From assembly GCF_032854445.1 (NCBI RefSeq), contig NC_088302.1, positions 57,886,237 through 57,950,236 of the forward strand: 64,000 nt of DNA, written 5' to 3'. Both the position numbers and the translations under genes were made by a program. Under the pieces are notes generated by a model that searched no databases, was not told the origin of the DNA, and saw only the letters and a program-made list of their open reading frames with translations. The DNA is from Liolophura sinensis (taxonomy: Eukaryota; Mollusca; Polyplacophora; Chitonida; Chitonidae). Of the stretch, positions 34,346 through 64,000 are shown piece after piece. Position 1 is the stretch's first letter, and every line of letters begins with the position of its first letter.

Positions 34346-34351
34346 CTTACT

Positions 34352-34540: not shown

Positions 34541-34550
34541 CAATTTATTT

Positions 34551-34762: not shown

Positions 34763-34898
34763 CAACCTGCGGATGATTGTGTGTTTCCCCCGGGCTCTGC
34801 TCGGTTTACACCCACCACAATGCTGGCCACCGTCGTATCAGTGAAATATTCTTGAGTACGGGGTAAAACACCAATCAAATAAATAAATAAATAAATTT
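34763..34898 (+). mobile_element. SINE, plus orientation (right of an opposed pair)
   Basis: CAACCTGCGGATGATTGTGT through CCACAATGCTGGCCACCGTC to four AAAT units. The opposed pair and the surrounding inverted pieces (34489-34540 against 34900-34950; 34694-34756 against 34958-35018) could fold back in RNA. Confidence 0.85.
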
Positions 34899-37741: not shown

Positions 37742-38034
37742 GGGGCCTATAGGGGGCCAATGTGGCCGAGGTGGTTGGCATGCGAGTGAGAAGCAGTCAT
37801 GACAATGACTCGGAAGTCTCTCACCATTGCGGTCACTGTCAGTTCAAGCCCAGCTCATGCTGGTTTCCCCTTTGGCCGTACTTGGTACTTGGGAAGGCCT
37901 ATCAGCAACTGGTGGATGGTTGTGGGTTTTCCCCAGGGTCTGCCCAGTTCCTTCCCATTATAATGCTGGCCGCAGTCATGGAAGTGAAATATTCTTGAGT
38001 ATGGCGTAAAACACCAAACAAATAAATATATAAA
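37742..38034 (+). mobile_element. Full-length tRNA-derived SINE
   Basis: A 293-bp copy bounded by an 11-bp target duplication, AGCACACTGTA (37731-37741 and 38035-38045). The head GGCCAATGTGGCCGAGGTGG has an A-box-like TGGCCGAGGTGG and a box B in CAGTTCAAGCCCAGCTC. The body contains GGTGGATGGTTGTGGGTTTT, and the 3' end ACACCAAACAAATAAATATA. It ends 156 bp before the AASDH start codon, so it may contribute to the 5' leader or promoter. Confidence 0.92.
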
Positions 38035-38190: not shown

Positions 38191-38322
38191 ATGACACAAA
38201 CTCTTCATAGCCTGTTTGATGCTGCAGCTGTCAAATACGCTCATCATATTGCCGTTTTGTATGACGATGGAGAAAACATTGTGAGAAAAACCTATAGACA
38301 GGTACAGAAGGATGCTCAACAG
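38191..38322 (+). CDS. AASDH: AASDH exon 1 (residues 1-44)
   Basis: The ATG at 38191 opens MTQTLHSLFDAAAVKYAHHI, the usual short N-terminal helix of adenylate-forming enzymes (LxxLFxxxAxxxPxxxA). The donor is CAACAG then GTAATC, phase 0. No upstream in-frame alternative matches the family. Confidence 0.9.
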
Positions 38323-41300
38323 GTAATCTCAGCCATTGCTGGCTCAGTGAGATATAGTGCTACCCTGGAAACCATATAACCTTCTTTAACAAGGTCATGT
38401 GTTTGAGATAAGGCCGGGCAAAGCTGACCTAATTATGAGAAAACAGGGTGGAGGGATACAAGGGGAGGTCATTATGGTTGCCTAGGTAACAATAAGGGGT
38501 CAGCAGCACTTGTATGACTATTTGTCCAGTAATACATTCATAAAAGTCCATGTGCCCAACATGAATATCACATGCAAATCTGCACACTACTGGGACAGTT
38601 CCAGTAACTTGTCATTGATTTGCTGGAGGCACTCCGGTATCCTCCACCTACAAAACTGGTCACTAAGTGAAAAATTGCAGAGCAGCAGTCCAAAAAAAAA
38701 AAAAAAAAAAGATCAGAAAAAAGCCAGGCAAATGAATAAGTAATACAATAATGACACAATGTCATGAAATCCTGGGGCCAAGGAAACATGGCGTGACATG
38801 TCTAATTTTGTCATGGTATGAAATGTCATTTTTATTAGGAAGTATGAAAGAACAAGGTTAAGTTCTTATGCAGATTTGTATTGTTATCATAATTAGTAAA
38901 GTCAAATGTCAGTAAAACATTTACGTCTATTTTAGATTAAGGATGCCCTTAAAGAGCTGGATGCCTGCGGCAGAGTCATTGGCCTGTGCTGCCCTCCTAC
39001 GGATATGTTACCATCTTTACTGCTTGGGTAGGAAACATTTCAGGGCTCTCTGTGCATGGCATTGCTGAAATTTATAGAAATATATATTCATTTACCAATC
39101 AAAACATTACAGTCTCTTAAAAATTCTGAACTAGTGAATCTGTGGATAACATATAATCCATATAGGCAACGTTTCAGGGTAGATGAAGCAATGTTACACT
39201 CCTGACAGAATGTACTGATACCAGGACATGGGCGATTCATTCACTGCCAAACTCAGGCCATTGATCACTAGTTTTACAACACAAATATACATGTATCTGT
39301 TTCTAGTATACTGAGTGCCGGGTCATCCTTTCACCCTGTTGACCTTTATGGAGGAAGATACAGCTTACAAGGGCTCAGGCTGTTGGAAGTGGACTACTTG
39401 ATCATTGATGTGGATAGCTTACAGGTTAGGAGTCGGCAGTGTTAGCTTACGTACCACTGGAAAAGGACAACAGAGATAAATACATTGTTCAACCATGACA
39501 TAAACAGTTGTGAAAAGGACATGACAGGTTGTGACCCAGATCTGATCAGTTGTGAAAATGACATGACAGGTTGTGACCCAGATCTGATCAGTTGTGAAAA
39601 TGACATGACAGGCTGGTCAGTTGTGAAAATGACATGACAGGTTGTGACCCAGATCTGGTCAATTGTGAAAATGACATGACAGGCTGTGACCCAGATCTGA
39701 TCAGTTGTGAAAATGACTTGACAGGTTGTGACCTAGATCTGATCAGTTGTGAAAATGACATGACAGGCTGTGACCCAGATCTGATCAGTTGTGAAAACCA
39801 CATCTTCAGATTGTGGTTTAGGCACTCAAAGAACTAATTGGATTGACACACAACTACATATAGTTTGGTGGTGTTGGCTAATATTGAGGATTCAAGATGA
39901 TAAAAAAGATTAAAGTGTACTTTGTAGAAATATTGCAAAAAGTTGTAAAATTTTTAAATAAACAATGATAACAGTTGAAATAGTTGAACTTAAATGAAAT
40001 AATGTCTCCCTTCTTCAGGAAGTTGAGTGTTTTCTGAGGAGAGCTGATATTTCTGTTAGCCTATCCCCAAATACATTCCTCTTGGACTGTGGCTACCTCA
40101 TCCTTAGATTGACATCAGGCAAATGTTATACCTCTTCTGTAAGGGTAAGAGCAGGGGAGATAACTGCATACTGCATAACTACATCAGGGACGACAGGTGT
40201 GCCTAAGGTCGTGAGAGTTCCACACAGATGTATTGTACCAAACATCGTTCATCTCAGGTAAGAGGTAATATGTGCTGGTGAGAGAGGCTTTAAACATTAT
40301 AGTATTATGATGCTACTGTGACCGGATATGTTACGCTGTAAGGCAGTGGCTGGTGCATTATAAACACTGTGACTAAACTACTGTAGCTATGTAGGTGGAC
40401 TAGGGATGTAGTGACTGGTGTGTTATAACACTGTGAGTAAACTACTACAGCTATGGGGATGTAGCGGTGGGTGTGTTATAACACTGTGACTAAACTACTA
40501 TAGCTACTGTGAAGTACTTAATGTTTGTGTGGAACTAATTTTCGCCGATTTCACAGTCAATAAATTACTGCGAAAAATAATTCCAGTAAAAAAAATATCC
40601 AGTATTGAATCATATACTAGAGGTAGTAGTAATAATGAAGTGAAATCTTTGCCAGGGTGATGGGAGTTGTGCTGAGAAAGCCCTACGGGCTAGGTAAATT
40701 TTTTAACAGTAAAGAAGGGAAATTATGGTTTAAGTATATGCAAACTCTGATGCTAAGGCTTGGTGAGTATAAAACAAAGTATGAGTTTATTCGTTTTTAA
40801 TTTGATCCATCTTTGCTATGCTTGTAAAGCGGAAGAAAAGTAGATACCAGCATGTGCTGGCTTCTAATGAATGTGGCTCTGATACACACTATCCCATTGG
40901 CTGTGTCTCTCCTGTGGTCCAATGAGTGAGCTTCTAACAAACTGTGAAGTGTGTACAACAACATAATGGCCGTTTAACAACTACGACAATGTTTGTGGTT
41001 TCTGACCTGCTACAGAGGACGATGAAAACAATGCAAAACTTACCATGTTGCTTGATAAAGAATGAGTGACTGGTGCCGATAATGGTGAATATATGTTTTA
41101 TGTTGAACTGCTCTAAAGGCGACAGGTCACTTTGCCAGGTGTTTAAAAGCACTCATCAATGATTCGAAAAGAAGTGAGACCTGTTTGAGTACTGCTCACA
41201 GTAGGTGCGAAAGTAATCTTCTTACTTAGTGATAATCCATCCCCGACTGTTTTAATCTTTGATCCAGATCATGAGGATTAGCAACAGCGCAGGAAACAAA

Positions 41301-44300
41301 GGAGATTTAAGCCATCAATGAAGATACCTGCTTGACATGCTTGAACAATTTTGGCCGTATTATATCTTGGAAAATTTTAAGATTTGCTTTTCAGTATTTT
41401 CTTAAATACGCGAAAATTAATTCCAGCAAATAAGAAGTACTTTACAATATGTAGGTAGGCTGGGGATGTAGTGACTGGTGTGTTATAACACTTCTACTAT
41501 GAACTACTATAGCTGTGAGGTGGGCTGGGGATGTAGTGACTGGTGTGTTATAACACTGTGACTAAACTACTATAGCTGTGATGTGGGCTGGGGATGTAGT
41601 GACTGTTGTGTTATAACACTGGGACTAAACTACTATAGCTGTGATGTGGGCTGGGGATGTAGTGACTGTTGTGTTATAAACACTGTGACCAAACTACTCT
41701 AGGTGTGAGGTGGGCTGGGGATGTAGTGACTGTTGTGTTATAAACACTGTGACTAAACTACTATAGGTGTGAGGTGGGCTGGGGATGTAGTGATTGGTGT
41801 GTTATAACACTGGGACTAAACTACTATAGCTGTGTAGGTTGGCTGGGAATGTAGTGACTGGTGTGTTATAAACACTGTGTCTAAACCACTGAATAAAGTC
41901 TATGAGCTGAGTGAGGGCAACCTTGTCTTCCTGGCCTCACTTTTGACCTTTGATTGCAGTGTAGTAGAGATTTTCTTGATTATGTTATGTCATTATCCGT
42001 TTATTGTTTAGTGAAATCTTTGAGCTGAGTGAGGATGATCTGCTCTTCCTGGCGTCACCTCTGACCTTTGACCCCAGCATTGTGGAGATATTCCTGGCCT
42101 TGACCTCTGGAGCTCGCATTCTGATCACACTACAGCTGATCAGAATGGTTCCCAGGAAGTTTGTCAACATGGTGACTGACAGACATCATGTGACAGTTCT
42201 GCAGGTGAGACAACATGTGTCAGTTCTACAGGTGAGACAGCATGTGATAGTTCTACAGGTAAGACATCTTGAGACAGTTTTACATGTAAGACATCATGTG
42301 ATAGTTCTCCAGGTGAGACAACATGTTCCAGTTCTACAGGTAAGACATCATGTGCCGGTTGTACAGGTGAGATATCATGTGACATTTCTTCAGGTGATAC
42401 ATCATATGACAGTGTTACAGGTAAGACACCATGTGATAGTTCTACAAGTGAGACATCATGAAACATTTCTACAGGTGAGATATCATGAGACGGTTTTACA
42501 TGTAAGACATGTGGAAGTTGTTGAGGTAAGACAGTATGTGACAGCTCTACAGGTAAGACATCGTGTGACAGTTCTACAAGTGAGACATCATGAGACAGTT
42601 TTACATGTAAGACATCATGTGATAATTCTTCAGGTGAGACATCGTATGACAGTTCTACAGATAAGACATCATGTGACAGTTCTACAGGTGAGATATCACG
42701 AGACAGTTTTACATGTAAGACATCATGTGGTAATTCTTCAGGTGAGACATCATATGACGGTTCTACAGGTGAGATATCTTGAGGCAGTTTTACATGTAAG
42801 AAAACAGGTGGTAGTTCTACAGGTGAGACAACATGAGACAGTTGTACAGGTAAGACATAATGTGGCAATTGAACAGGTGAGATATCATGGGACAGTTTTA
42901 CATGTAAGACATCATGTGGTAATTCTTCAGGTGAGACAGCTCTACAGGTGAGATATCTTGAGACAGTTTTACCTTTAAGGCAACAGGTGGTAGATCTACA
43001 TGTGAGACAACATGTGACAGTTGTACAGGTAAGAGATCATGTGGCAGTTCTACGGGTGAGATATCATGAGACAGTTTTGCATGTAAGACATCATGTGGTA
43101 ATTTTTCAGGTGAGACATCATATGACAGTTCTACAGGTAAGACATCCTGTGACAGTTCTACAGGTGAGATATCTTGAGACCGTTTTACATTTAAGACAAC
43201 ATGTGGTAGTTCTACAGGTGAAACAACATGTGACAGTTGTAGAGGTAAGACATCATGTGGCAGTTGTACAGGTGAGATATCATGTGACAGCTCTTCAGAT
43301 GAGACAACATGTGGCAGTTCTACAGGTGATACATCATGTGACAGCTCTACAGGGGAGACATCATGAGACAGTTGTACATGTAAGACAACATGTGTTAGTT
43401 CTTCAGGTGAGACAACCTTGACAGTTGTACAGGTAAGACATCATATGACAGCTCTACAGGTAAGACATCATGTGACAGCTCTACAGGTGAGATATCATGT
43501 GACAGTTCTACAGTTGAGGGAATCATGGGTGAGACAGGTGAGACATCATGATGCAGTTTTTCATGTAGGACATCATGTGATAGGTCTTCATGTGGTAGGT
43601 CTTCAGGTGTGACATGTGACAGTTCTTCAGGTAAGACATCGTGTGATGTGCCATTTGTACAGGTGAGATATCATGTGATGGCTCAGCAGTTGAGACATCA
43701 TGTGACAGTTCTTCAGGTGAGACAAGATGTGGTAATTCTACAGGTAAGACAGCATGTGCCGGTTCTACAGGTGAGAAATCATGTGACAGTTTTACAGGTG
43801 AGACATCATGAGACAGTGTTTCATGTAAGACATCATGTGGTAGTTCTTCAGGTGAGATATTGTGTGACAGCTCTACAGGTAAGACATCATGTGATGTGAC
43901 AGTTCAACAGGTAAGACACCATGTGACAGTTCTATAGCTAAGACATCATATGAACTAATAGTGTGTCACCTACCATCTGAGCTGACATGGCCATGTGAGA
44001 TAATAATATGTGTCGCATTCCATCTGAGCTGACATAAGGCCTTGTAAAATAATAATATGTGTCACATACCATCTGAACCGACATGGCCATGTGAGATAAT
44101 AATGTGTCATCTACCATCTGAACTGACATGGCCATGTGAGATAATAATGTGTGTTACATACCATCTGAGCTGACATGGCCATGTGAGATAATAATATGTG
44201 TCACATTCCATCTGAGCTGACATAAGGCCTTGTAAAATAATAATATGTGTCACATACCATCTGAACCGACATGGCCATGTGGGATAATAATGTGTGTTAC

Positions 44301-47300
44301 ATACCATCTGAGCTGACATGGCCATGTGAGATAATAATATGTCGCATTCCATCTGAGCTGACATAAGGCCTTGTAAAATAATAATATGTGTCACATACCA
44401 TCTGAACCGACATGGTCATGTGAGATAATAAAGTGTGTTACATACCATCTGAGCTGACATGGCCATGTGAGATAATAATGTGTCATCTATCATCTGAGCT
44501 GACATAAGGCCTTGTGAAATAATAATATTGTCACATACTATCTGAACCGACATGGCCATGTGAGATAATAATGTGTGTCGCATTCCATCTGAGCTGACAT
44601 AAGGCCTTGTGAAATAATAATATGTGTCGCATTCCATCTGAGCCGACATGGCCATGTGGGATAATAATGTGTGTCGCATTCCATCTGAGCTGACATAAGG
44701 CCTTGTGAAATAATAATATGTGTCGCATTCCATCTGAGCCGACATAGCCATGTGGGACAATAATGTGTCTATCATCTGAGCTGACATAAGGCCTTGTGAA
44801 ATAATAATATGTGTCACATACCATCTGAACCGACATGGCCATGTGAGATAATAATATGTGTCACCTACCATCTGAGCTGACATGGCTATGTGGGATAATA
44901 ATGTGTGTGACATACCATCTGAACTGACATGGCCATGTGAGATAATGTGTGTTACATACCATCTGAGCTGACTTGGCCATGTGAGGTAATAATGTGCGTC
45001 ACATACCATCTGAACTGACATGGCCATGTGAGATAATGTGGGTTACATATCATCTGAACTGACATGGCCATGTGAGATAATTATGTGTGTCACATACCAT
45101 CTGAGCCGACATGGCCATGTGAGATTATGTGTGTCACATACCATCTGGGGTGATTTATGACCATGAGAGATAATAATGTGTGTCACATACCATCTGAGCC
45201 AACATGGCCATGTGAGATAATGTGTGTCACATACCATCTGGGGTGATTTATGACCATGAGAGATAATAATGTGTGTCACATACCATCTGAACCGACATGG
45301 CCATGTGAGATAATAATGTGTGTCACATACCATCTGAGCCCACATGGCCATGTGAGATAAGGTGTGTCACATACCATCTGAGCTGACCATTAGAGATAAT
45401 AATGTGTCACATACCATCTGAGCTGATTTATGACCGTTAGAGATAATAAGGTGTGTCACACACCATCTGCGCTGATATATGGCCATAGGACATAAGAATG
45501 TGTGTCATCTACCATCTGAGCTGATGTGAGATGATAATGTGTGATGGGTTATGTTTCAGGTGACACCAACAATAGTTTCAAATCTGGGAACAGAACTTAT
45601 CAGGTCGTGCTTACTGAGTGAGACGACCAAATTGAGAACTCTTGTGTTTGGAGGTGAGAAATGTCCCTCGTACAGTATGCTGGGAAGATGGCGGTCAGGT
45701 GGCAACCAGACCAAACTGTTCAATGTTTATGGAACCACTGAAGTGTCCTGCTGGGCAACATATTACAGAATCGCAGACATCGATGTAACTTCAGGGTATG
45801 TGAAAATAGCCATATTAGTCAGAATTGTGTCTAATATATCATTTGAGAAAGTTGTAATAAGATTCTCCTGATTTCCTCGAAATAGTCCTCGAAAAGTTGG
45901 TTCTGGAGATATCCCAGTGGGCTAATGTAGACTATATCCCAGTGGGCTAATGTAGACTATATCCCAGTGGGCTAATGTAGACTATATCCCAGTGGGCCAT
46001 TGTAGACTATATCCCAGTGGGCTATTGTAGACTATATCCCAGTGGGCTATTGTAGACTATATCCCAGTGGGCTGTTGTAGACTAGTGTATTGTTTACATG
46101 TAACTTTCTGGAGATATCCCAGTGAGCTATTGTAGACTATATCCCAGTGGGCTATTGTAGACTATATTCCAGTGGGCTATTGTAGACTATATCCCAGTGG
46201 GCTATTGTAGACTAGTGTATTGTTTACATGTAACTTTCTGGAGATATCCCAGTGAGCTATTGTAGACTATATCCCAGTGGGCTATTGTAGACTATATTCC
46301 AGTGGGCTATTGTAGACTAGTGTATTGTTTACATGTAACTTTCTGGAGATATCCCAGTGAGCTATTGTAGACTATATCCCAGTGGGCTAATGTAGACTAT
46401 ATCCCAGTGGGCTATTGTAGACTATATCCCAGTGGGCTATTGTAGACTAGTGTATTGTTTACATGTAACTTTCTGGAGATATCCCAGTGGGCTAATGTAG
46501 ACTATATCCCAGTGGGTTAATGTAGACTATATCCCAGTGGGCCATTGTAGACTATATCCCAGTGGGCTATTGTAGACTATATCCCAGTGGGCTATTGTAG
46601 ACTATATCCCAGTGGGCTGTTGTAGACTAGTGTATTGTTTACATGTAACTTTCTGGAGATATCCCAGTGAGCTATTGTAGACTATATCCCAGTGGGCTAT
46701 TGTAGACTATATTCCAGTGGGCTATTGTAGACTATATCCCAGTGGGCTATTGTAGACTAGTGTATTGTTTACATGTAACTTTCTGGAGATATCCCAGTGA
46801 GCTATTGTAGACTATATTCCAGTGGGCTATTGTAGACTAGTGTATTGTTTACATGTAACTTTCTGGAGATATCCCAGTGGGCTATTGTAGACTATATCCC
46901 AGTGGGCTATTGTAGACTAGTGTATTGTTTACATGTAACTTTCTGGAGATATCCCAGTGGGCTATTGTACAGTAGTGTATTGTTTACATGTAACTTTCTG
47001 GAGATATCCCAGTGAGCTATTGTAGACTGTGTATCCCAGTGGGCTATTGTAGACTATATTCCAGTGGGCTATTGTAGACTAGTGTATTGTTTACATGTAA
47101 CTTTCTGGAGATATCCCAGTGTGCTACTGTAGACTAGTGTATTGTTCACATGTAACTTTCTGGAGATTTCCTTGTGTGCTACTGTAGACTAGTGTATTGT
47201 TTACATGTAACTTTCTGGAGATATCCCAGTGGGATATTGTAGACTACTGTATTGTTTACATGTAACTTTCTGGAGATATTCCAGTGGGATATTGTAGACT

Positions 47301-50300
47301 AGTGTATTGTTTACATGTAACTTTCTGGAGATATCCCAGTGAGCTATTGTAGACTATATCCCAGTGGGCTATTGTAGACTATATTCCAGTGGGCTATTGT
47401 AGACTATATCCCAGTGGGCTATTGTAGACTAGTGTATTGTTTACATGTAACTTTCTGGAGATATCCCAGTGAGCTATTGTAGACTATATCCCAGTGGGCT
47501 ATTGTAGACTATATTCCAGTGGGCTATTGTAGACTAGTGTATTGTTTACATGTAACTTTCTGGAGATATCCCAGTGGGCTATTGTAGACTATATCCCAGT
47601 GGGCTATTGTAGACTAGTGTATTGTTTACATGTAACTTTCTGGAGATATCCCAGTGGGCTATTGTACAGTAGTGTATTGTTTACATGTAACTTTCTGGAG
47701 ATATCCCAGTGAGCTATTGTAGACTGTGTATCCCAGTGGGCTATTGTAGACTATATTCCAGTGGGCTATTGTAGACTAGTGTATTGTTTACATGTAACTT
47801 TCTGGAGATATCCCAGTGTGCTACTGTAGACTAGTGTATTGTTTACATGTAACTTTCTGGAGATTTCCTTGTGTGCTACTGTAGACTAGTGTATTGTTTA
47901 CATGTAACTTTCTGGAGATATCCCAGTGGGATATTGTAGACTACTGTATTGTTTACATGTAACTTTCTGGAGATATTCCAGTGGGATATTGTAGACTAGT
48001 GTATTGTTTACATGTAACTTTCTGGAGATATCCCAGTGGGATATTGTAGACTAGTGTATTGTTTACGTGTAACTTTCTGGAGATATCCCAGTGGGCTAAT
48101 GTAGACTAGTGTATTGTTTACATGTAACTTTCTGGAGATATCCCAGTAAGCTACTGTAGACTAGTGTATTGTTTACATGTAACTTTCTGAAGATATCCCA
48201 GTGGGCTATTGTAGACTAGTGTATTGTTTACATGTAACTTTCTGGAGATATCCCAGTAAGCTATTGTAGACATGAGATATTGTTTACATGTAAACATCAC
48301 CCCTGAATGAGGCTGACCAAATATGGAGGAGATCATTTTCAGATGTAGTCCACATGACAAAAGCATGTGACACAAGCAAATACCCATTCAACCCGTACCA
48401 TGTTCATCTGTCTTAAACATGTCTGAGAAAACACTTTCAATCACAACACCTCAAGTGGTCTAGTGGTGTAAGTGTCCGGCTAGAGACCCAACAAGCTGTC
48501 TGATGGATGTTTGAATACAGAGCTTTTCTGAACAAAAAGAGAAATGACTCCCAGAAGTGTATGAACAGAGAACAGTTGAGCGCAGAAAACTCATGGATGA
48601 CAGTGTCATGTGACGGAGACTAGAGTGAAGAATGCCTTACTTACATTTATGCTGTTTTCTTTGCATGTAAAGTGAACATCTGCTATCATTGAACAATGAA
48701 AAATCAGTAAAAGCATGTGACTGTGGAAAAAAAAAACCTGATGTCAAAAGGCCCGTGGAAATCAACACATAAATAGCACCCTAGTCTTTACAGACCCCAT
48801 CCAGTATACACATAGGCTCTTTTTTCTTCTGTTAAATAACATACATACAAACCCATTACACATACATAGTAGTTTCATCCAGCTTCTGAAAGTTTATAAG
48901 TAGTTATTGTTACCCATGTGTTCATGGCGTTTTATGAGCTTTGATGTAGGAGTGTTTGTGTGTGTATTGTCAGTGTTGCAGAAGCCTCTGTTCCTCTGGG
49001 GGAGCCTCTACTGGACACAGCCGTGGAGGTGAGAGATGAGCAGGGGGCCTGTGTAACAGAGGGCGAGGGAGAGCTCTTCATTGGTGTGTTACATGTAATC
49101 ACAGAAAACTGCTTATATTTTGTAATAATATGTGTTTTTTGTTTCAATTGAAGAGTAGGACAAAAGTTTGAACATATCAAGTGAACTGTAGACTAGTGTA
49201 TTGTTTACATGTAACTTTCTGGAGATATCACAGTAGACTAGTGTATTGTCTCTCAGGAAGAGACCATTGATAAAAAAAAATGTCTATTTTATATAAATGC
49301 ATTCTAAAAAAGGCTGCATGCTGTGAAAATGTGTATTTTTCTGTTTACTAACCTATTTTGGAAAAGTACATTGTTGTTGTAAATCATTTTATCAAAATGA
49401 GAATTGAAAGAGAAATAGGTTTATGGATAACAAAGTGCCTAATTTCAGGTAGCTCCTCCAGAGTGTGTATTGTAGGTGATGGGGAGTGTTTGGGACAGGT
49501 GTGGCTCCCCTCAGGGGGTCAGATATGGCGACCCACAGGTGATCGTGTAAGGCGCACTGTCAACGGCAAATTACTCTACCTTGGGAGGATTGATCAACAA
49601 GCAAAGCGTCATGGGATGAGACTCAGTCTGTTGGTCATAGAAGCGGTAAGCCAAGAGTAAAACATTTCCAATCTCCAGGTGTACACCCAGAGTTAAACAT
49701 TTCCAATCTCCAGGTGTAAGCCCAGAGTAAAACATTTCCAATCTCCAGGTGTACGCCCAGAGTGAAACATTTCCAATCTCCAGGTGTAAGCCCAGAGTAA
49801 AACATTTCCAATCTCCAGGTGTACGCCCAGAGTGAAACATTTCCAATGTCCAGGTGTAAGCCCAGAGTAAAACATTTCCAATCTCCAGGTGTAAGCCCAG
49901 AGTAAAACATTTCCAATCTCCAGGTGTACGCCCAGATTGAAACATTTCCAATGTCCAGGTGTAAGCCCAGAGTAAAACATTTCCAATCTCCAGGTGTAAG
50001 CCCAGAGTGAAACATTTCCAATCTCCAGTTGTACGCCCAGAGTGAAACATTTCCAATCTCCAGGTGTAAGCCCAGAGTGAAACATTTCCAATCTCCAGGT
50101 GTAAGCCCAGAGTAAAACATTTCCAATCTCCAGGTGTAAGCCCAGAGTAAAACATTTCCAGTCTCCAGGTGTAAGCCCAGAGTGAAACATTTCCAATCTC
50201 CAGGTGTACGCCCAGAGTGAAAAATTTCCAATCTCCAGGTGTAAGCCCAGAGTAAAACATTTCCAATCTCCAGGTGTAAGCCAAGAGTAAAACATTTCCA

Positions 50301-53300: not shown

Positions 53301-56300
53301 GATATTCTGTGTTACATGTAGTTAGTGAACTAGAAGTTGTGGCCTGATATTCTGTGTTTCAGATAATAAGTGAACTAGAAGTTGTGGCCTGATATTCTGT
53401 GTTTTTGGTAGTAAGTGAACTAAAAGTCTTGGCCTGATATTCTGTGTTTCAGGTGGTAAGTGAACTAGAAGTCTTGGCCTGATATTCTGTGTTTCAGGTA
53501 GTAAGTGAACTAGAAGTTGTGGCCTGATATTCTGTGTTTCAGGTAGTAAGTGAACTAGAAGTTGTGGCCTGATATTCTGTGTTTCAGATAGTAAGTGAAC
53601 TAGAAGTCATGGCCTGATATTCTGTGTTTCAGGTAGTAAGTGAACTAGAAGTCTTGGCCTGATATTCTGTGTTTCACGTAGTAAGTGAACTAGAAGTCAT
53701 GGCCTGATATTTTGTGTTACATGTAGTAAGTGAACTAGAAGTCGTGGCCTAATATTCTGTGTTTCAGGTAGTAAGTGAACTAGAAGTCATGGCCTGATAT
53801 TCTGTGTTTCAGGTAGTAAGTGAACTAGAAGTTGTGGCCTCTTGTGCTGCCAGTTTGGACAAGGGGAGACTTCTCCTGTTTGTGACGTGTACACGTGGCG
53901 GAAGTTCTGATAAATCCCCAGCGGATCTTGTCAGTTATATTAAGAAACATGTGAAGGCCAGTCTACCTGTACAGTATCATCCTGACACAGTGAGGCTGCT
54001 AACCAGTCTGCCCCTCACTAAACATGGTACGTCAAGTACTAACCAGTCTGCCCCTCACTAATTACAATACATCAAGTACTAACCAGTCTGCCCATCACTA
54101 AACATGGTACATCAAGTACTAACCAGTCTGCCCCTCACTAATAACAATACATCAAGTACTAACCAGTCTGCCACTCACTAAATATGGTACGTCAAGTACT
54201 AACCAGTCTGCCCCTCACTAATAACAGTACAAGTACTAACCAGTCTGCCCCTCACTAAACATGGTACATCAAGTACTAACCAGTCTGCCCCTCACTATAC
54301 ATGGTACATCAAGTACAAACAAGTGGGGCCCTCGCTATACATGGTACATTAAGTACAAACCAGAGGGACCCTCACTAAACATGGTACATCAAGTACTAAC
54401 CAGTGGGACCCTCATTAAACATGGTACATCAAGTACTAACCAGTGGGACCCTTACTAAACATGGCACATCAAGTACAAACCAGTGGGACCCTCACTAAAC
54501 ATGGCACATCAAGTACTAACCAGTGGGACCCTCACTAAACTAGTGGGACCCTCACTAAACATGGTACATCAAGTACTAACCAGTGGGACCCTCACTAAAC
54601 CAGTGGGACCCTCACTAAACATGGTACATCAAGTACTAACCAGTGGGACCCTCACTAAACATAGTACGTCAAGTACTAACCAGTGGGACCCTCACTAAAC
54701 ATGGCACATCAAGTACAAACCAGTGGGACCCTCACTAAAGATGGTACGCCAAGTACTTACCAGTGGGACCCTCACTAAACCTGGCACATCAAGTACTAAC
54801 CAGTTGGACCCTCACTAAAGATGGCACATCAAGTACAAACCAGTGGGACCCTCACTAAAGATGGTACGCCAAGTACTTACCAGTGGGACCCTCACTAAAC
54901 CAGTGGGACCCTCACTAAACATGGTACATCAAGTACAAACCAGTGGGACCCTCACTAAAGATGGTACGCCAAGTACTTACCAGTGGGACCCTCACTAAAC
55001 CTGGCACATCAAGTACTAACCAGTGGGACCCTCACTAAAGATGGCACATCAAGTACAAACCAGTGGGACCCTCACTAAAGATGGTACGCCAAGTACTTAC
55101 CAGTGGGACCCTCACTAAACCAGTGGGACCCTCGCTAAACATGGTACATCAAGTACTAACCAGTGGGACCCTCACTAAACATAGTACGTCAAGTACTAAC
55201 CAGTGGGACCCTCACTAAACATGGCACATCAAGTACAAACCAGTGGGACCCTCACTAAAGATGGTACGCCAAGTACTTACCAGTGGGACCCTCACTAAAC
55301 CTGGCACATCAAGTACTAACCAGTGGGACCCTCACTAAACATGGCACATCAAGTACAAACCAGTGGGACCCTCACTAAAGATGGTACGCCAAGTACTTAC
55401 CAGTGAGACCCTCACTAAACCTGGCACATCAAGTACTAACCAGTGGGACCCTCACTAAACATGGCACATCAAGTACAAACCAGTGGGACCCTCACTAAAG
55501 ATGGTACGCCAAGTACTTACCAGTGGGACCCTCACTAAACCTGGCACATCAAGTACTAACCAGTGGGATCCTCACTAAACCAGTGGGACCCTCACCAAAC
55601 ATGGTACATCAAGTACTAACCAGTGGGACCCTCACTAAACATGGTACATCAAGTACTAACAATTCTGCCCCTCACTAAACACAGTACATTAAGTACTAAC
55701 CAGCCTGTTCCTCACCAAACATGGCACATCAAGTACTAACCAGTCTGTCCCTCACTAAACATGGTTTGTCAAGGATGTGTGAACATACTTAGTGCACAAA
55801 GATACACAAAGTGAAAAGATGTTTGACCCAGGCACACCATATTTTTGTCTGAGCATTGGTTATTAAGTATGTGTTCATTTGCATCTCTTGAGCATATGTA
55901 ATTATACGGACATAATGTGTCTCAGCCTACGTACAGTGTGTATGTAAGTGGTGTTTGTCTCCTGTCTCCCTATCACTGTCAAACCCGGCCACTTTTCTCC
56001 ACACATATGGACGTAGACATTAGACGTGTAATCCAGCAGCTGTCAGTGTAATGATGGACATTGATGTATTCAGCACATGAGATCTTCAACAATAAGAAAA
56101 TGACTGTTCTGCACGATGTTTTCAGGTAAGGTGGATAAGCGAGCGCTGGTGAGGCAGACAGAGTATTCTCCCCGTGAGTGTGCCGAGAACCTGAGCTGGG
56201 CTGGTGTGAGGAACCTTCTGGAACTCCACTGGAAGGTTTGAAAGCTACTCTTACTTATTACTCCATTTTAGGTAAATACGCACCTTTGAGTTTATTGTAA

Positions 56301-59300
56301 TTAATGTATATTGTGATTGTACTCTTTTCTAAGCATTGCACAGTTAGGAGATAGGAATATGGTCTATCACCTAACTATTTGCTTATGACTAAGTTGCACA
56401 TTTTGCCTAAATAAAGTTCTTCAATAGTTATAGAAATTTTTTGAGGTTTGTTTGGAAGAGTGGTTTTAGTCCTACTGGCAAAACGCACGTATACTCCTCA
56501 GCCACCAAAGTAATATTTTATGATATTTATTAGCCTCTGAATCATATTTGTTTTGGACAAATATGGAATGTGTGTGAGTATGATTATTTTGTGAACTTTG
56601 AACTATGTCCTTGTTGTCTGAGTTGATGGATTGGTTTGTTTCTAAGCATTGATTGTGTGTTTATTGTGGGATGGAGTGTGAGACTGAGTGGCAGAGAGAT
56701 GCCATCAGTTTTAAAATTCAGTGAGTCAGAATCAGCTTCAGAATCAAATAATTTCCAAGTGATTTATTTTATTCAGGGTCATTTAGGTTGTGAAATGTCA
56801 AAGATGATGGATGATTCAGACAAGTTCATTGAGAGTGGTGGTAATTCCTTCAAAGCTGTTAACCTGGCTTCAAGTGTTGAGGATGCTACAGGCAGAGTTA
56901 TCCCCTTCTCCTGGACAAGATACTTCACGAGACATTTAAGAGTGTCTGTGATTATGTACACAATTGTTTGAAAATGGCTCAGCAAAGTGTGTGTGGAAAG
57001 AACAGTGGGAGTTTGTCAGGTGATTTTGTTGTTAAGATGGACAGGAATGACAGTGGTGCTGTTACATCTGTCCCCATGGCAACTACTTTTAAATCAGAAC
57101 AGCTGACAAATAGGAAGAGAAGATCGCCAGCAGGGAAGGGAGATCGCTTTACCACAAAGGAAAAAGTTTTTAAACATAATGTTGTGCCGGGGATAGATGG
57201 AAGGGAGGTAACCATGTCTGTGAGTAGAGGGTCAAGAATTTTCTATCATATGAACAAAAACAGTTATGACAAATGTGTTAAGAGAGGTGAATCAGCCAGA
57301 ATCCCCCGTAAACAGGGGCAGGCTTCAACTCTCACGAACCATCCTGTGTCAGCAGTGTGTGCTGAATGTAAATGTAGAGTCGGTGATCGTGAGGACACAT
57401 CCTCAGCTTTTACTGTAAGAGAGGTATGGAGGTACAACGCGGGAAAGTGTATTGATGCATCTCCTCTGGTGGCAGTTTGCAGGTAGGACTCCTGTTGCTC
57501 CTCACTAAATTTACACTGTATGTTCTCAGTCAGCTATACTTTAATAACTTCTGGTCAGCTTTACTTTGTCACTTGTAGATGTGACATCATAGGCATTAAA
57601 CAATTTTCAGTTTTGTGGCCTTAGCAATGTTTGATTCCAGTCTCATATTTGAAAGCACACCAAACCAGACATATTATTTAAAGATTTGTTGAATAATGCA
57701 TAAATAGAATTATAACTTCACATTTGTAGTTAACTGCCAGGAAACACTGAAAGGAAGTATATCAGATGAAAGACCATTAAACAATATCTCAGTAAACCAA
57801 TTGATGTTTTTGACTGGAGTTTTTCCATTTGAATGAAATCCTTGTGGGAACTTTGTGTTTAAGTCATGACCTATCTGTATAATTTCTTGAAATGGATTCA
57901 TTCGATAAATGTTTTCATAGCTCTGAAAACTTGTGTATACGTCCATGTGCTGAATTCATAGCTCTGTACGCTTGTGTATACGTCTGTGTGCAGTATTCAT
58001 AGCTGTGTACACTTGTTTATAGGTCCAGGTGCAGAATTCATAGCTCTGTACACTTGTGTAGACCTTCATGTGGAGAATTCATAGCTGTGTACACTTGTGT
58101 ATACGTCCATGTTCAGTATTCATAGCTCTGTACACTTGTGTAGACCTTCATGTGGAGAATTCATAGCTTTGTACACTTGTGTATACGTCCAGGTGCAGTA
58201 TTCATAGCTCTGTACACTTGTGTATATGTCCATGTGCAGTATTCATAGCTCTGTACACTTGTGTAGACGTTCATGTGGAGAATTCATAGCTGTGTACGCT
58301 TGTGTATACGTCCATGTGCAGTATTCATAGCTCTGTACACTTGTGTAGACGTTCATGTGGAGAATTCATAGCTGTGTACACTTGTGTATACGTCCAGGTG
58401 CAGAATTCATAGCTCTGTACACTTGTGTATACGTCCAGGTGCAGAATTCATAGCTCTGTACACTTGTTTATAGGTCCATGTGCAGTATTCATAGCTCTGT
58501 ACACTTGTGTATACGTCCAGGTGCAGAATTCATAGCTCTGTACACTTGTGTATACGTCCAGGTGCAGAATTCATAGCTCTGTACACTTGTTTATAGGTCC
58601 ATGTGCAGAATTCATAGCTCTGTACACTTGTTTATAGGTCCATGTGCAGTATTCATAGCTCTGTACACTTGTGTATACGTCCAGGTGCAGAATTCATAGC
58701 TCTGTACACTTGTGTATACGTCCAGGTGCAGAATTCATAGCTCTGTACACTTGTTTATAGGTCCATGTGCAGAATTCATAGCTCTGTACACTTGTGTATA
58801 CGTCCAGGTGCAGTATTCATAGCTCTGTACACTTGTGTATACGTTCATGTGGAGAATTCATAGCTCTGTACACTTGTGTATACGTCCAGGTGCAGAATTC
58901 ATGGCTGTGTACACTTGTGTATACGTCCATGTGCAGTATTCATAGCTCTGTACACTTGTGTAGACGTTCATGTGCAGTATTCATAGCTCTGTACACTTGT
59001 GTATACGTCCATGTGCAGTATTCATAGCTCTGTACACTTGTGTATACGTCCATGTGCAGTATTCATAGCTCTGTACACTTGTGTATATGTCCGTGTGCAG
59101 TATTCATAGCTCTGTACACTTGTGTATACGTCCATGTGCTGAATTCATAGCTGTGTACACTTGTGTATATGTCCATGTGCAGTATTCATAGCTCTGTACA
59201 CTTGTTTATAGGTCCATGTGCAGAATTCATAGCTTTGTACACTTGTGTATACGTCCATGTTCAGTATTCATAGCTCTGTACACTTGTGTATACGTCCAGG

Positions 59301-62300
59301 TGCAGTATTCATAGCTCTGTACACTTGTGTATATGTCCATGTGCAGTATTCATAGCTCTGTACACTTGTGTAGACGTTCATGTGGAGAATTCATAGCTGT
59401 GTACGCTTGTGTATACGTCCATGTGCAGTATTCATAGCTCTGTACACTTGTGTAGACGTTCATGTGGAGAATTCATAGCTGTGTACACTTGTGTATACGT
59501 CCAGGTGCAGAATTCATAGCTTTGTACACTTGTGTATACGTCTGTGTGCAGTATTCATAGCTCTGTACACTTGTTTATAGGTCCATGTGCAGTATTCATA
59601 GCTCTGTACACTTGTGTATACGTCCAGGTGCAGAATTCATAGCTCTGTACACTTGTGTATACGTCCAGGTGCAGAATTCATAGCTCTGTACACTTGTGTA
59701 TACGTCTGTGTGCAGTATTCATAGCTCTGTACACTTGTTTATAGGTCCATGTGCAGAATTCATAGCTCTGTACACTTGTGTATACGTCCAGGTGCAGTAT
59801 TCATAGCTCTGTACACTTGTGTATACGTTCATGTGGAGAATTCATAGCTCTGTACACTTGTGTATACGTCCAGGTGCAGAATTCATGGCTGTGTACACTT
59901 GTGTATACGTCCATGTGCAGTATTCATAGCTCTGTACACTTGTGTAGACGTTCATGTGCAGTATTCATAGCTCTGTACACTTGTGTATACGTCCATGTGC
60001 AGTATTCATAGCTCTGTACACTTGTGTATACGTCCATGTGCAGTATTCATAGCTCTGTACACTTGTGTATATGTCCGTGTGCAGTATTCATAGCTCTGTA
60101 CACTTGTGTATACGTCCATGTGCTGAATTCATAGCTGTGTACACTTGTGCTATATGTCCATGTGCAGTATTCATAGCTCTGTACACTTGTTTATAGGTCC
60201 ATGTGCAGAATTCATAGCTTTGTACACTTGTGTATACGTCCAGGTGCAGTATTCATAGCTCTGTACACTTGTGTATACGTCCAGGTGCAGAATTCATAGC
60301 TCTGTACACTTGTGTATACGTCCAGGTGCAGAATTCATAGCTCTGTACACTTGTGTATACGTCTGTGTGCAGTATTCATAGCTCTGTACACTTGTTTATA
60401 GGTCCATGTGCAGAATTCATAGCTCTGTACACTTGTGTATACGTCCAGATGCAGTATTCATAGCTCTGTACACTTGTGTATACGTCCAGGTGCAGAATTC
60501 ATAGCTCTGTACACTTGTGTATACGTCCATGTGCAGAATTCATAGCTCTGTACACTTGTGTAGACGTTCATGTGGAGAATTCATAGCTGTGTACGCTTGT
60601 GTATACGTCCATGTGCAGTATTCATAGCTCTGTACACTTGTGTATACGTCCAGGTGCAGAATTCATAGTTCTGTACACTTGTGTAGACGTCTGTGTGCAG
60701 TATTCATAGCTCTGTACACTTGTTTATAGGTCCATGTGCAGTATTCATAGCTCTGTACACTTGTTTATAGGTCCAGGTGCAGAATTCATAGCTCTGTACA
60801 CTTGTGTATGCGTCCATGTGCAGTATTCATAGCTCTGTACACTTGTGTATACATCCATGTGCAGTATTCATAGCTCTGTACACTTGTGTATACGTCCGTG
60901 TGCAGTATTCATAGCTCTGTACACTTGTTTATAGGTCCATGTGCAGTATTCATAGCTCTGTACACTTGTGTATATGTCCATGTGCAGTATTCATAGCTGT
61001 GTACACTTGTGTATATGTCCATGTGCAGTATTCATAGCTGTGTACACTTGTTTATAGGTCCATGTGCTGAATTCATAGCTCCGTACACTTGTGTATATGT
61101 CCAGGTGCAGTATTCATAGCTGTGTACACTTGTTTATAGGTCCATGTGCAGTATTCATAGCTGTGTACACTTGTGTAGACCTTCATGTGGAGAATTCATA
61201 GCTGTGTATACTTGTGTATAGGCCCATGTGCAGTATTCATAGCTGTGTACACTTGTGTATACGTCCGTGTGCAGTATTCATAGCTGTGTACACTTGTTTA
61301 TAGGTCCAGGTGCAGAATTCATAGCTCCGTACACTTGTGTATACGTCCAGGTTCATTATTCATAGCTCTGTACACTTGTGTATACGTCCGTGTGCAGTAT
61401 TCATAGCTGTGTACACTTGTTTATAGGTCCATGTGCAGTATTCATAGCTCTGTACACTTGTGTATAGGTCCATGTACAGAATTCATAGCTGTGTACACTT
61501 GTGTATACGTCCATGTGCTGAATTCATAGCTGTGTACACTTGTTTATAGGTCCATGTGCAGTATTCATAGCTCTGTACACTTGTTTATAGGTCCATGTGC
61601 AGTATTCATAGCTCTGTACACTTGTGTATATGTCCATGTGCAGTATTCATAGCTGTGTACACTTGTGTATACGTCCGTGTGCAGTATTCATAGCTCTGTA
61701 CACTTGTGTATAGGTCCATGTACAGTATTCATGGCTGTGTACACTTGTGTATACGTCCATGTGCTGAATTCATAGCTGTGTACACTTGTGTATATGTCCA
61801 TGTGCAGTATTCATAGCTCTGTACACTTGTGTATAGGTCCATGTGCAGTATTCATGGCTGTGTACACTTGTGTATACGTCCATGTGCTGAATTCATAGCT
61901 GTGTACACTTGTGTATATGTCCATGTGCAGTATTCATAGCTCTGTACACTTGTTTATAGGTCCATGTGCTGAATTCATAGCTCCGTACACTTGTGTATGC
62001 GTCCATGTGCAGTATTCATAGCTGTGTACACTTGTTTATAGGTCCATGTGCAGTATTCATAGCTCTGTACACTTGTGTAGACCTTCATGTGGAGAATTCA
62101 TAGCTGTGTACACTTGTGTATAGGCCCATGTGCAGAATGCATAGCTCTGTACACTTGTGTATTCGTCCAGGTGCAGAATTCATAGCTCTGTACACTTGTG
62201 TAGACGTTCATGTGCAGTATTCATAGCTCTGTACACTTGTTTATAGGTCCAGGTGCAGTATTCATAGCTCTGTACACTTGTGTATGCGTCCATGTGCAGT

Positions 62301-63711
62301 ATTCATAGCTCTGTACACTTGTGTATACGTCCGTGTGCAGTATTCATAGCTGTGTACACTTGTTTATAGGTCCATGTACAGAATTCATAGCTGTGTACAC
62401 TTGTTTATAGGTCCAGGTGCAGAATTCATAGCTCTGTACACTTGTGTATACGTCCATGTGCAGTATTCATAGCTCTGTACACTTGTGTATAGGTCCATGT
62501 GCAGTATTCATGGCTGTGTACACTTGTGTATACGTCCATGTGCTGAATTCATAGCTGTGTACACTTGTGTATATGTCCATGTGCAGTATTCATAGCTCTG
62601 TACACTTGTTTATAGGTCCAGGTGCAGAATTCATAGCTCTGTACACTTGTGTAGACCTTCATGTGGAGAATTCATAGCTGTGTATACTTGTGTATACGTC
62701 CGTGTGCAGTATTCATAGCTGTGTACACTTGTTTATAGGTCCATGTGCTGAATTCATAGCTCCGTACACTTGTGTATACGTCCATGTGCAGTATTCATAG
62801 CTGTGTACACTTGTTTATAGGTCCATGTGCAGTATTCATAGCTCTGTACACTTGTGTAGACCTTCATGTGGAGAATTCATAGCTGTGTACACTTGTGTAT
62901 AGGCCCATGTGCAGAATGCATAGCTCTGTACACTTGTGTATACGTCCAGGTGCAGAATTCATAGCTCTGTACACTTGTGTAGACGTTCATGTGCAGTATT
63001 CATAGCTCTGTACACTTGTTTATAGGTCCAGGTGCAGTATTCATAGCTCTGTACACTTGTGTATATGTCCATGTGCAGTATTCATAGCTCTGTACACTTG
63101 TTTATAGGTCCAGGTGCAGTATTCATAGCTCTGTACACTTGTGTATGCGTCCATGTGCAGTATTCATAGCTCTGTACACTTGTGTATACGTCCGTGTGCA
63201 GTATTCATGGCTGTGTACACTTGTTTATAGGTCCATGTACAGAATTCATAGCTCCGTACACCTGCGTATACGTCCATGTGCAGAGGCACTTTGATTACAG
63301 GTATCTATCAGTTTGTGTATTACATGACAAAACCTGATTTGTCATTAGTCCTCATCGTATGGTCAGAAAAGGCCCCTCTGGAATCCAGTGATTCAACTGT
63401 GTTCTAAAAACTTTTGTGTAGTGTGTTTAATAATAGACTTTTATCTTACAAGTCAAATATACTTTGTTAGCATTTTTTATTTGGCTTCACATATACAGTA
63501 ATTACAGCTCTAAATTTATGACATGTAATATGATAAATCAGTGAACTTTTTTTCAGTGCAAGGGCGCAAGACATGGTCTTCATTGGCTCACATTCTCATC
63601 TGTTTTCTGCTGTTTCCATGGCAACTGGCAAAGCAGTATGGGAGAGAAAGCTAGGAGATCGCACTGAGTCCTCCGCTTGTCTTACGACCTGTGGAAAGTT
63701 TGTTGTTGTGG
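38191..63711 (+). CDS. AASDH: AASDH / ACSF4 (acyl-CoA synthetase family member 4), exons 1-12, 3' end outside window
   Basis: Twelve GT-AG exons encode about 835 residues of a protein that has about 1100 in human, so the last third (beta-propeller) lies beyond the window. Order: adenylate-forming domain (TSGTTG about residues 169-174, YGTTE about 315-319, TGDRV about 403-407, GRIDQQAKRHG about 419-429, A10 Lys at 512 in HGKVDKRAL), carrier domain (GGNSF with the phosphopantetheine Ser about 571), then a PQQ-type beta-propeller beginning GKCIDASPLV and IGSHSHLFSAV. The family activates a small carboxylic acid or amino acid and loads it on the carrier domain. The physiological substrate is disputed, and beta-alanine has been proposed for the insect relative Ebony-like/U26-type enzymes. 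Exon phases fit throughout except one apparent single-base loss in exon 11. Nearly every intron is filled by minisatellites. Confidence 0.95.
38936..39027 (+). CDS. AASDH: AASDH exon 2 (residues 45-75)
   Basis: The acceptor is TCTATTTTAG. Encodes IKDALKELDACGRVIGLCCP and PTDMLPSLLL. The donor is CTTGG then GTAGGA, phase 2. Confidence 0.9.
39307..39424 (+). CDS. AASDH: AASDH exon 3 (residues 75-114)
   Basis: The acceptor is TGTTTCTAG. Encodes ILSAGSSFHPVDLYGGRYSL, QGLRLLEVDYLIIDVDSLQ, the A2-A3 linker of the adenylation domain. The donor is CTTACAG then GTTAGG, phase 0. Confidence 0.9.
39500..39800. repeat. 42-bp minisatellite in AASDH intron 3, about 7 copies
   Basis: The unit is GATCAGTTGTGAAAATGACA then TGACAGGTTGTGACCCAGATCT. 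It starts about 75 bp after the exon 3 donor and no exon-derived piece is recognisable. Confidence 0.93.
40019..40257 (+). CDS. AASDH: AASDH exon 4 (residues 115-194), AMP-binding P-loop
   Basis: The acceptor is CCCTTCTTCAG and the donor CATCTCAG then GTAAGA, phase 2. It contains ITTSGTTGVPKVVRVPH, the A3 nucleotide-binding loop of the ANL superfamily, complete with the Lys that usually follows Pro. Confidence 0.96.
40300..40504. repeat. 63-bp minisatellite in AASDH intron 4, left part
   Basis: The unit is GTGTGTTATAACACTGTGAC then TAAACTACTATAGCTGTGAG and GTGGGCTGGGGATGTAGTGACTG. It is cut by the MITE at 40505 and continues at 41450. Confidence 0.9.
40505..41449 (-). mobile_element. TA-flanked MITE-like transposon, copy 2
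   Basis: Opposite-orientation copy of the 1446-2517 element without the SINE. The element proper is 40507-41447. TA at 40505-40506 and at 41448-41449 is the target duplication. The host 63-bp unit reads TATAGCTATGTAGGTGG, so the pre-insertion sequence can be read directly. Ends: CTGTGAAGTACTTAATG and, on the minus strand, TTGTAAAGTACTTCTTA. Confidence 0.85.
41450..41888. repeat. 63-bp minisatellite in AASDH intron 4, right part
   Basis: Continuation of the same array, about seven units, ending just before the duplicated exon 5 fragment. Confidence 0.92.
41897..41980 (+). pseudogene. Decayed duplicate of the 5' part of AASDH exon 5
   Basis: Aligns without gaps to 42017-42098 of exon 5, about three quarters identical by eye over 80 bases, sharing TATGAGCTGAGTGAGG / TTTGAGCTGAGTGAGG and GACCTTTGA. 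The matching frame is still open: YELSEGNLVFLASLLTFDCS then VVEIFL. It has no good polypyrimidine tract or donor, so it is probably an unused relic exon 115 bp upstream of the real one. Confidence 0.8.
42012..42204 (+). CDS. AASDH: AASDH exon 5 (residues 194-258)
   Basis: The acceptor is TTTATTGTTTAG. Encodes EIFELSEDDLLFLASPLTFD then PSIVEIFLALTSGARILI and ends DRHHVTVLQ. The A4-region SPLTFDPSIVEIF is intact. The donor GTTCTGCAG then GTGAGA (phase 0) is the first of dozens: the next 1.7 kb repeats the exon end plus donor. Confidence 0.96.
42181..43940 (+). repeat. 27-bp exon 5 junction minisatellite, about 65 copies
   Basis: The unit is AGACATCATGTGACAGTTCT plus ACAGGTG. It equals the last 24 bases of exon 5 (42181-42204) plus the start of intron 5. 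Most copies keep CAG then GTGAGA or GTAAGA; some have CATGTAAGA. The period of 27 keeps the exon frame open (VRHHVTVLQ-type text) until a TGA at 42949-42951. Confidence 0.95.
43958..45535. repeat. 46-47-bp minisatellite in AASDH intron 5
   Basis: The unit is ACATACCATCTGAGCTGACA then TGGCCATGTGAGATAATAATGTGTGTC. A variant with ATAAGGCCTTGTGAAATAAT alternates with it. It ends about 25 bp before exon 6. Confidence 0.93.
45560..45795 (+). CDS. AASDH: AASDH exon 6 (residues 259-337)
   Basis: The acceptor is TTATGTTTCAG and the donor ACTTCAGG then GTATGT, phase 2. Encodes VTPTIVSNLGTELIRSCLL, LRTLVFGGEKCPS and LFNVYGTTEVSCWATYYRI, the A5 adenine-binding motif. Its VTPT start joins directly to VTVLQ of exon 5, as in the human protein. 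Confidence 0.97.
45905..48285. repeat. 25-bp minisatellite with higher-order structure in AASDH intron 6
   Basis: ATATCCCAGTGGGCTATTGT plus AGACT alternates with AGTGTATTGTTTACATGTAA plus CTTTCTGGAG. Rare variants (GCTATTGTACAGTAGTG at 46961 and 47658; GACTGTGTATCCC; GATTTCCTTGTG) recur 697 bp apart, showing duplication of a block of about 0.7 kb. A stray piece lies beyond exon 7 at 49188-49256. Confidence 0.95.
48286..48973. other. AASDH intron 6, right part, no other gene
   Basis: Unique intronic sequence. CCTCAAGTGGTCTAGTGGTG near 48450 looks like a tRNA-type A-box region of a SINE but has no clear box B or tail. Confidence 0.45.
48974..49083 (+). CDS. AASDH: AASDH exon 7 (residues 337-374)
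   Basis: The acceptor is GTATTGTCAG. Encodes VAEASVPLGEPLLDTAVEVR then DEQGACVTEGEGELFI (A6 region, EGELxIGG type). The donor is TTCATTG then GTGTGT, phase 1. Confidence 0.95.
49188..49256. repeat. Stray intron 6 repeat units in intron 7
   Basis: GTAGACTAGTGTATTGTTTA then CATGTAACTTTCTGGAGATATC matches the intron 6 array, so exon 7 sits between array pieces. Confidence 0.9.
49449..49645 (+). CDS. AASDH: AASDH exon 8 (residues 374-439), A7-A8 core
   Basis: The acceptor is CTAATTTCAG. Carries RPTGDRVRRT (A7, ribose-binding Asp) and YLGRIDQQAKRHGMRLSL (A8 hinge). The donor is GAAGCG then GTAAGC, phase 0. The 33-bp array begins at the donor itself. Confidence 0.97.
49646..50905. repeat. 33-bp minisatellite starting at the exon 8 donor, about 38 copies
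   Basis: The unit is GTAAGCCCAGAGTAAAACAT then TTCCAATCTCCAG. The first unit begins with the functional donor GTAAGC, and later units repeat it as CAGGTGTAAGC. The exon-sense frame meets TAA in the first unit. Long minus-strand frames (up to 377 codons) are by-products. Confidence 0.95.
51005..53812 (+). repeat. 45-bp exon 9 acceptor minisatellite, about 62 copies
   Basis: The unit is GTAGTAAGTGAACTAGAAGT then CGTGGCCTGATATTCTGTGTTTCAG. It equals the 3' splice site of exon 9 and its first 26 bases. Many units keep TTTCAG then GTAGTAAG; others have TTACATG. The GTAAGT word makes each also a donor match. Block homology at a 1260-bp distance (51721 and 52981) shows higher-order duplication. Confidence 0.96.
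53813..54026 (+). CDS. AASDH: AASDH exon 9 (residues 440-511)
   Basis: The true acceptor is the last TTTCAG of the array; only after it does the frame run VVSELEVVASCAASLDKGRL to VRLLTSLPLTKHG without the TGA present in each upstream unit. This is the mobile C-terminal subdomain of the adenylation domain. The donor is AACATG then GTACGT, phase 1. Confidence 0.96.
53990..55765 (+). repeat. 40-bp exon 9 donor minisatellite, about 44 copies
   Basis: The unit is CTAACCAGTCTGCCCCTCAC then TAAACATGGTACATCAAGTA. It equals the last 28 bases of exon 9 plus the first 12 of intron 9. Rightward units change to CAGTGGGACCCTCACTAAAC. The period is not a multiple of 3, so use of other copies would shift frame. 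Confidence 0.95.
56126..56235 (+). CDS. AASDH: AASDH exon 10 (residues 511-547)
   Basis: The acceptor is GATGTTTTCAG. GKVDKRALVRQTEYSPRECA supplies the A10 catalytic lysine, then LLELHWK starts the carrier domain. The donor is TGGAAG then GTTTGA, phase 0. Confidence 0.95.
56777..57482 (+). CDS. AASDH: AASDH exon 11 (carrier domain and linker), apparent frameshift
   Basis: The acceptor is TTTATTCAG and the donor TTTGCAG then GTAGGA. The first frame encodes DSDKFIESGGNSFKAVNLAS, with Ser in the GGxS phosphopantetheine site, to EDATGR, and would stop at 56969. The other frame resumes LLLDKILHETFKSVCDYVHN and continues through a Lys/Arg-rich linker to WRYNAGKCIDASPLVAV. Both halves match the family. 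The length, 706, is one base short of what the phases need. The shift lies at about 56897-56905. It may be a sequencing error, a polymorphism or a real lesion. Confidence 0.9.
57915..63290. repeat. 41-bp minisatellite in AASDH intron 11, about 130 copies
   Basis: The unit is CTCTGTACACTTGTGTATAC then GTCCATGTGCAGTATTCATAG, the longest array here (5.4 kb). The 58794-59027 and 59778-60011 segments translate identically, indicating a 984-bp block duplication. No exon-derived seed is recognisable. Confidence 0.96.
63557..63711 (+). CDS. AASDH: AASDH exon 12 (start of beta-propeller)
   Basis: The acceptor is CTTTTTTTCAG. Encodes MVFIGSHSHLFSAVSMATGK then AVWERKLGDRTESSACLTTC and GKFVVVG, one PQQ-type propeller blade closely matching the human protein. 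The donor is GTTGTGG then GTGAGT, phase 1. Further exons lie outside the window. Confidence 0.97.
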
Positions 63712-64000
63712 GTGAGTTTCCCAATGTCATGGTTAGCTGAACATCTTTGTTGTTGGTGAGTATCCCAATGTCATGGTAAGCTGAACATCTCTGGTTTGGG
63801 TGAGTTTCCCAATGCCATGGTTAGCTGAACATCTCTGTTGTGGGTGAGTATCTCAATGTCATGGTGAGCTGAACATCTCTGGTGTGGGTGAGTTTCCCAA
63901 TGTCATGGTTAGCTGAACATCTCTGTTGTGGGTGAGTATCTCAATGTCATGGTGAGCTGACCATCTCTGGTTTGGGTGAGTTTCCCATTGTCATGGTTAG
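63697..64000 (+). repeat. 44-bp exon 12 donor minisatellite, runs off the window
   Basis: The unit is GTGAGTTTCCCAATGTCATG then GTTAGCTGAACATCTCTGTTGTGG. It repeats the intron start together with TTGTTGTGG from the exon 12 end, so each unit again carries a GTGG then GTGAGT donor. Confidence 0.9.

Follow-up and report, generated by a model that had tools for sequence, protein, structure and literature searches.

Tandem repeats that run across an exon-intron boundary, named "mirages", have been described in lancelets, in Adh3 and in the globin genes BflGb6 and BflGb9, and troponin C and PGBD5 are also mirage genes (PMC3902484). According to the accessible parts of these reports, lancelet mirages occur at both donors and acceptors, many of their copies contain the AG or GT, and the exon is bounded by the copy at one end of the array. 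Three to six units are reported there for the BflGb6 mirage. Mirages are also characterised as leaving normal splicing intact and as varying in length among haplotypes or cells. Intronic minisatellites have been described in an earthworm, and no junction repeats were found in the part of that paper that is accessible. Finally, according to the accessible part of a paper that cites the proposal, tandem duplication of AGGT proto-splice sites has been put forward as a source of introns (PMC3087553).

Here we analyzed a stretch of 64,000 nucleotides (hereafter the window) of the genome of the chiton Liolophura sinensis (contig NC_088302.1, positions 57,886,237 to 57,950,236), which contains 12 of the 16 exons of the gene AASDH (ACSF4). 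The original prediction held that arrays such as those present in this gene belong to no described system; as far as the lancelet reports are accessible, mirages are such a system. Like them, the AASDH arrays span exon boundaries, are present at donors as well as at an acceptor, at both 5' and 3' boundaries of exons, contain AG or GT in many but not all copies, and bound the exon by an end copy. They differ in their host, which is a mollusc and not a cephalochordate; cephalochordates are where mirages have been described, and not a logical need of the definition. They also differ in scale: this single gene has five arrays, with up to ~63 copies, compared with the three to six units reported for BflGb6. 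Judged from sequence alone, the AASDH arrays appear to be mirage-type minisatellites. In the titles and opening lines of abstracts covered by our literature searches, most subscription papers being beyond reach, we recognised no junction-spanning arrays outside lancelets, and as far as these searches go the chiton adds a new phylum.

AASDH contains ordinary intronic minisatellites besides the junction arrays, and the two kinds are alike in their periods and growth. In contrast to the ordinary kind, the seed of four AASDH arrays takes in an exon end. As in the duplication of AGGT proto-splice sites, the duplicated segment in AASDH carries a splice site, but here existing introns grew and no new intron was seen.

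AASDH and its arrays

The AASDH gene was rebuilt from the sequence. The first 12 exons, established by a splice map, joined reading frames and Pfam matches, span positions 38191 to 63711 of the forward strand (exons 1-4, 38191-38322, 38936-39027, 39307-39424 and 40019-40257; exons 5-8, 42012-42204, 45560-45795, 48974-49083 and 49449-49645; exons 9-12, 53813-54026, 56126-56235, 56777-57482 and 63557-63711), and the other four are located downstream of the window. All 15 introns have GT/AG ends, and their phases are compatible except for a shift of one base within exon 11, near 56907, which is either a sequencing error or real and which we read with an X. Apart from this shift, use of the outermost splice sites gives a continuous reading frame. 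Once spliced, exons 1-12 encode 834 residues, which match the Pfam families AMP-binding (3.8e-37) and Beta-prop_ACSF4, the propeller of the beta-alanine-activating enzyme (1.4e-19); the score for the latter, 71.1 bits, is below the curated cut-off of 133 because exons 1-12 encode just the first part of the propeller. The name AASDH, predicted from the sequence beforehand, therefore holds.

Array limits and periods were determined with TRF and compared with the exon map. Four arrays, all on the forward strand, span an exon-intron junction. The 27-bp array (42181..43953) carries the donor of exon 5 together with the 24 nt of exon that precede it, the functional donor being that of the first copy. 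Exon 9 is flanked on both sides: the 45-bp array (51006..53840) comprises its acceptor and first 28 nt, with the functional acceptor in the last copy, and the 40-bp array (53999..55765) its last 28 nt and donor, with the functional donor in the first copy. The 44-bp array (63704..64752, the window ending at 64000) carries the exon 12 donor preceded by the final 8 nt of that exon. The junctions involved are thus the donors of exons 5, 9 and 12 and the acceptor of exon 9, and the ends of these exons align to many copies within their own arrays. Because the copies carry exon bases together with splice dinucleotides, each of these four arrays started from a segment spanning its junction. The fifth array (49646..50907, forward strand), for which TRF gives a period of 35 bp and not 33 bp as predicted, begins at the exon 8 donor. 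Its start is the first intron base after the exon and its unit is without exon bases, so that it abuts the junction and does not overlap it. In all five arrays, the exon is bounded by the splice site of the end copy closest to it. Hence, the prediction that five arrays include or abut an AASDH splice site stands for the 27-, 45-, 40- and 44-bp arrays, with the fifth abutting the exon 8 donor, and seeding by exon-intron junctions applies to the same four, which hold 8-28 nt of exon, and not to the 35-bp array.

As predicted, other arrays of this gene are located away from junctions according to their TRF limits. These are, all on the forward strand, a 42-bp array in intron 3 (39505..39797), a 64-bp array, predicted as 63 bp, in intron 4 (41453..41890), a 47-bp array in intron 5 that ends 35 bp before exon 6 (43956..45524), a 25/55-bp array in intron 6 (45909..48293) and a 41-bp array in intron 11 (57914..63283). 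A 53-bp array of two copies (40403..40506), in intron 4 of the same strand, is likewise away from junctions. Altogether, eight of the 13 intronic arrays touch no junction. The last exon, exon 16, contains an in-frame 30-bp array with ~17 copies of a 10-residue unit, in the part encoding the beta-propeller (L009 5015-5529, corresponding to 68778-69292 in window numbering); therefore, an array arose in coding sequence too.

The introns of the whole gene, with their 30 junctions, add up to 27,580 bases, but to 7,745 when every array is collapsed to one unit, so that array expansion accounts for ~72% of today's intron length. Introns 5, 8 and 9 consist of 83-99% array, as deduced from TRF and the exon map. 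At 41896-41980, ~119 bp upstream of exon 5, the beginning of that exon recurs as an incomplete, decayed copy, which resembles an old two-copy tandem duplication. The surroundings are also rich in arrays: 29 arrays cover 41.8% of the window, which is located ~440-500 kb from the scaffold end, and 36-88% of four 10-kb stretches downstream is array, compared with a coverage of 8.5% in 200 kb of random sequence (20 stretches from three contigs, with 43 arrays). Downstream of AASDH, a 41-bp array extends over at least 8.7 kb (~213 copies; L012 1262-10000), past the end of the stretch. A run of 200 N at 4555-4754, an assembly gap, separates a 53-bp from a 48-bp array.

Random seeding or preferred seeds

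The junction arrays of AASDH are probably explained, and at least cost, by random tandem duplication filtered by what splicing tolerates. Short tandem duplications would arise at more or less random positions in a gene that is prone to arrays and located close to the end of a scaffold, and the arrays would then expand through slippage or unequal exchange. A duplication spanning a junction would be tolerated as an intronic one is, because the outermost copy (the first donor or the last acceptor) would still define the exon and the inner copies would turn into intron. The random seeding, the mechanism of growth and the disregard of inner copies by splicing are inferred.

A possible but unlikely alternative is that junctions are preferred seeds, the DNA there being duplicated by a process linked to transcription or to splicing (through R-loops, stalled forks or repair at exon ends) in chitons as in lancelets, in several genes of which the same phenomenon is described in the accessible parts of the reports. 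To a similar degree we doubt that chitons and lancelets independently start arrays preferentially at junctions, from which introns grow outward, and that this happened five times in AASDH. For chance tests at the level of the gene, the 13 arrays were taken as seeds and the coding array of exon 16 was left out. When seeds were placed randomly in collapsed introns, a mean of 1.9 of the 13 touched a junction and the probability of five or more, as observed, was 0.03, which leans toward targeting. Two other null models gave values of about 0.1: P = 0.10 when real exon overlap only was counted (four or more, four being observed) and P = 0.11 when whole arrays were placed randomly in the present introns. 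These values of 0.03-0.11 take no account of AASDH being picked, after the fact, for its arrays. That such seeding is unlikely by chance, as originally predicted, was thus weakly borne out, under the collapsed-intron null and not under the two others.

We also counted donor triplets genome-wide, defined as CAGGTRAGT occurring three times at spacings of 21-51 bp, a definition that covers donor motifs only. The 936 donor triplets compare with 238 for the backwards motif, which would favor preferred seeds; however, single copies of the donor motif are also 2.6 times commoner than backwards ones (19,904 versus 7,580), so that the triplets per single copy are 0.047 and 0.031, respectively, a 1.5-fold difference. 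Moreover, the numbers of triplets were 710 for a scrambled motif and 221 for the same motif read backwards, which correspond to ~0.046 and ~0.025 per estimated single copy, the former being nearly the donor value; the numbers of scrambled singles (~15,500, and ~9,000 backwards) were estimated by a Markov model, built on random sequence outside arrays, that is off by about a fifth on the backwards donor count. Counted by matches, which are not independent within one array, the donor ratio is at the top of the control range, yet within that range.

A recount by place gave a different picture. The 100 donor matches listed make up 15 arrays, every one of them within the initial 18.9 Mb of contig C1, and the 100 scrambled matches listed to 11 arrays across 90.6 Mb, one of them in the first 18.9 Mb of C1. 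Among the matches listed, the 15 versus 1 arrays in this region have a binomial P of ~0.001 on the estimated single counts. The match lists may be incomplete: reverse-strand sites near C1:2,202,310 that are present among the triplets are absent from the list of single donors. In addition, the first 18.9 Mb of C1 is not a typical region, because, with 3% of the genome, it accounts for 100 of the 936 donor matches. The 15-to-1 recount tells against random seeding and keeps open a preference for junctions or for genes.

Array units drawn at random were screened for donor-like sites, using 41 of the 43 arrays from the 20 random stretches (two with units >120 bp were dropped). At thresholds of 7, 8 and 9 bits, respectively, 6, 4 and 3 units contained a donor-like site, compared with means of 6.2, 3.2 and 1.5 after shuffling, and the pooled sites numbered 8, 6 and 4, compared with 4.9, 2.5 and 1.2 expected. 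By eye, no recognisable exon edge was seen at the listed sites of at least 8 bits. As to R-loops, the original prediction named them as a possible cause, but the GC skew of the coding strand of the five junction arrays (+0.23, -0.15, +0.36, -0.27 and +0.29) has no common sign, which argues against them and against preferred seeds.

Two further loci bear on the question. A 14.4-kb haemocyanin locus contains one small array, and none on a junction; the molluscan haemocyanin family gave eight matches in a row in this genome, as fits a molluscan host. On the reverse strand, a 66-bp array of three copies (34343-34542) precedes the exon of APC10 (ANAPC10) in which coding starts, and seems to contain a 3' splice site and the start codon. 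An exon upstream of this array was not found, and APC10 is a possible second gene with a candidate junction array. Further APC10 exons are located near 33708-33872 and 29369-29650, and an ORF on the reverse strand in an APC10 intron (32257-33198) has DDE_3 and HTH_Tnp_Tc3_2 domains, which identify a Tc1-like transposase. A dispersed SINE-like repeat is present in five copies (669-706, 12884-12921, 24505-24542, 34832-34869 and 37975-38012), and resembles molluscan SINEs; a search of genome and viral contigs gave no exact match to it. Searches of the window with Rfam, at gathering cut-offs, and with ARAGORN gave no matches, and the Myosin_head profile has 81 matches in the genome.

Counted in favor of random seeding are the eight of 13 arrays off junctions, the coding array, the array-rich window, the triplet ratios and the haemocyanin locus; counted against it are the P value of 0.03, the top position of the donor ratio, the 15-to-1 recount, the pooled 9-bit sites (4 versus 1.2) and APC10. 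On balance, a preference for junctions is possible but not established.

Selection, assembly and mobile copying

That selection retains arrays of redundant splice sites, which would secure or diversify splicing, had also been proposed, and we consider it improbable. The donor is present in nearly all copies of three arrays, as GT is kept in 55 of the 63 near-complete copies of the 27-bp array, in 36 of 36 copies of the 35-bp array and in 22 of 23 copies of the 44-bp array, and in these arrays the columns of the splice dinucleotide are near or above the mean identity of the array. In addition, the 27-bp array continues the reading frame of exon 5, which stays open as far as 42951. However, the dinucleotide was lost in many copies of the other two arrays: AG is kept in 40 of 63 copies of the 45-bp array and GT in 24 of 42 near-complete copies of the 40-bp array, and one dinucleotide column has an identity of 0.67 in the former and 0.62 in the latter, compared with array means of 0.94 and 0.91. 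The consensus unit of the 45-bp array includes an in-frame stop, so that its upstream acceptors would truncate the protein, and unit lengths of 40 and 44 bp are not divisible by three. Taken together, the arrays give no general indication that redundant sites are under selection.

It is highly improbable that the arrays were inflated or misplaced during assembly. Repeats are hard to assemble, the HiFi coverage is 14x and exon 11 contains the one-base shift; however, the mean HiFi read of 8.3 kb is longer than every junction array (at most 2.8 kb), coverage and read length being those given in the accessible part of the genome report (PMC11068029), and the copies have diverged, with mean column identities of 0.86-0.96 in the five junction arrays. 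Least credible of all is the suggested mobile mechanism that copies short tracts into place, for which we found no support, since every junction array has its own unit, derived from its own exon border.

Random duplication filtered by splicing therefore remains the explanation we favor for AASDH, in which junction-spanning minisatellites are extended from lancelets to a mollusc. The gene is a natural setting in which to test how splicing chooses a single site out of dozens of similar ones, and whether introns lengthen by tandem duplication. Proof of a genome-wide preference for junctions would implicate a mutational process that is linked to transcription or to splicing.
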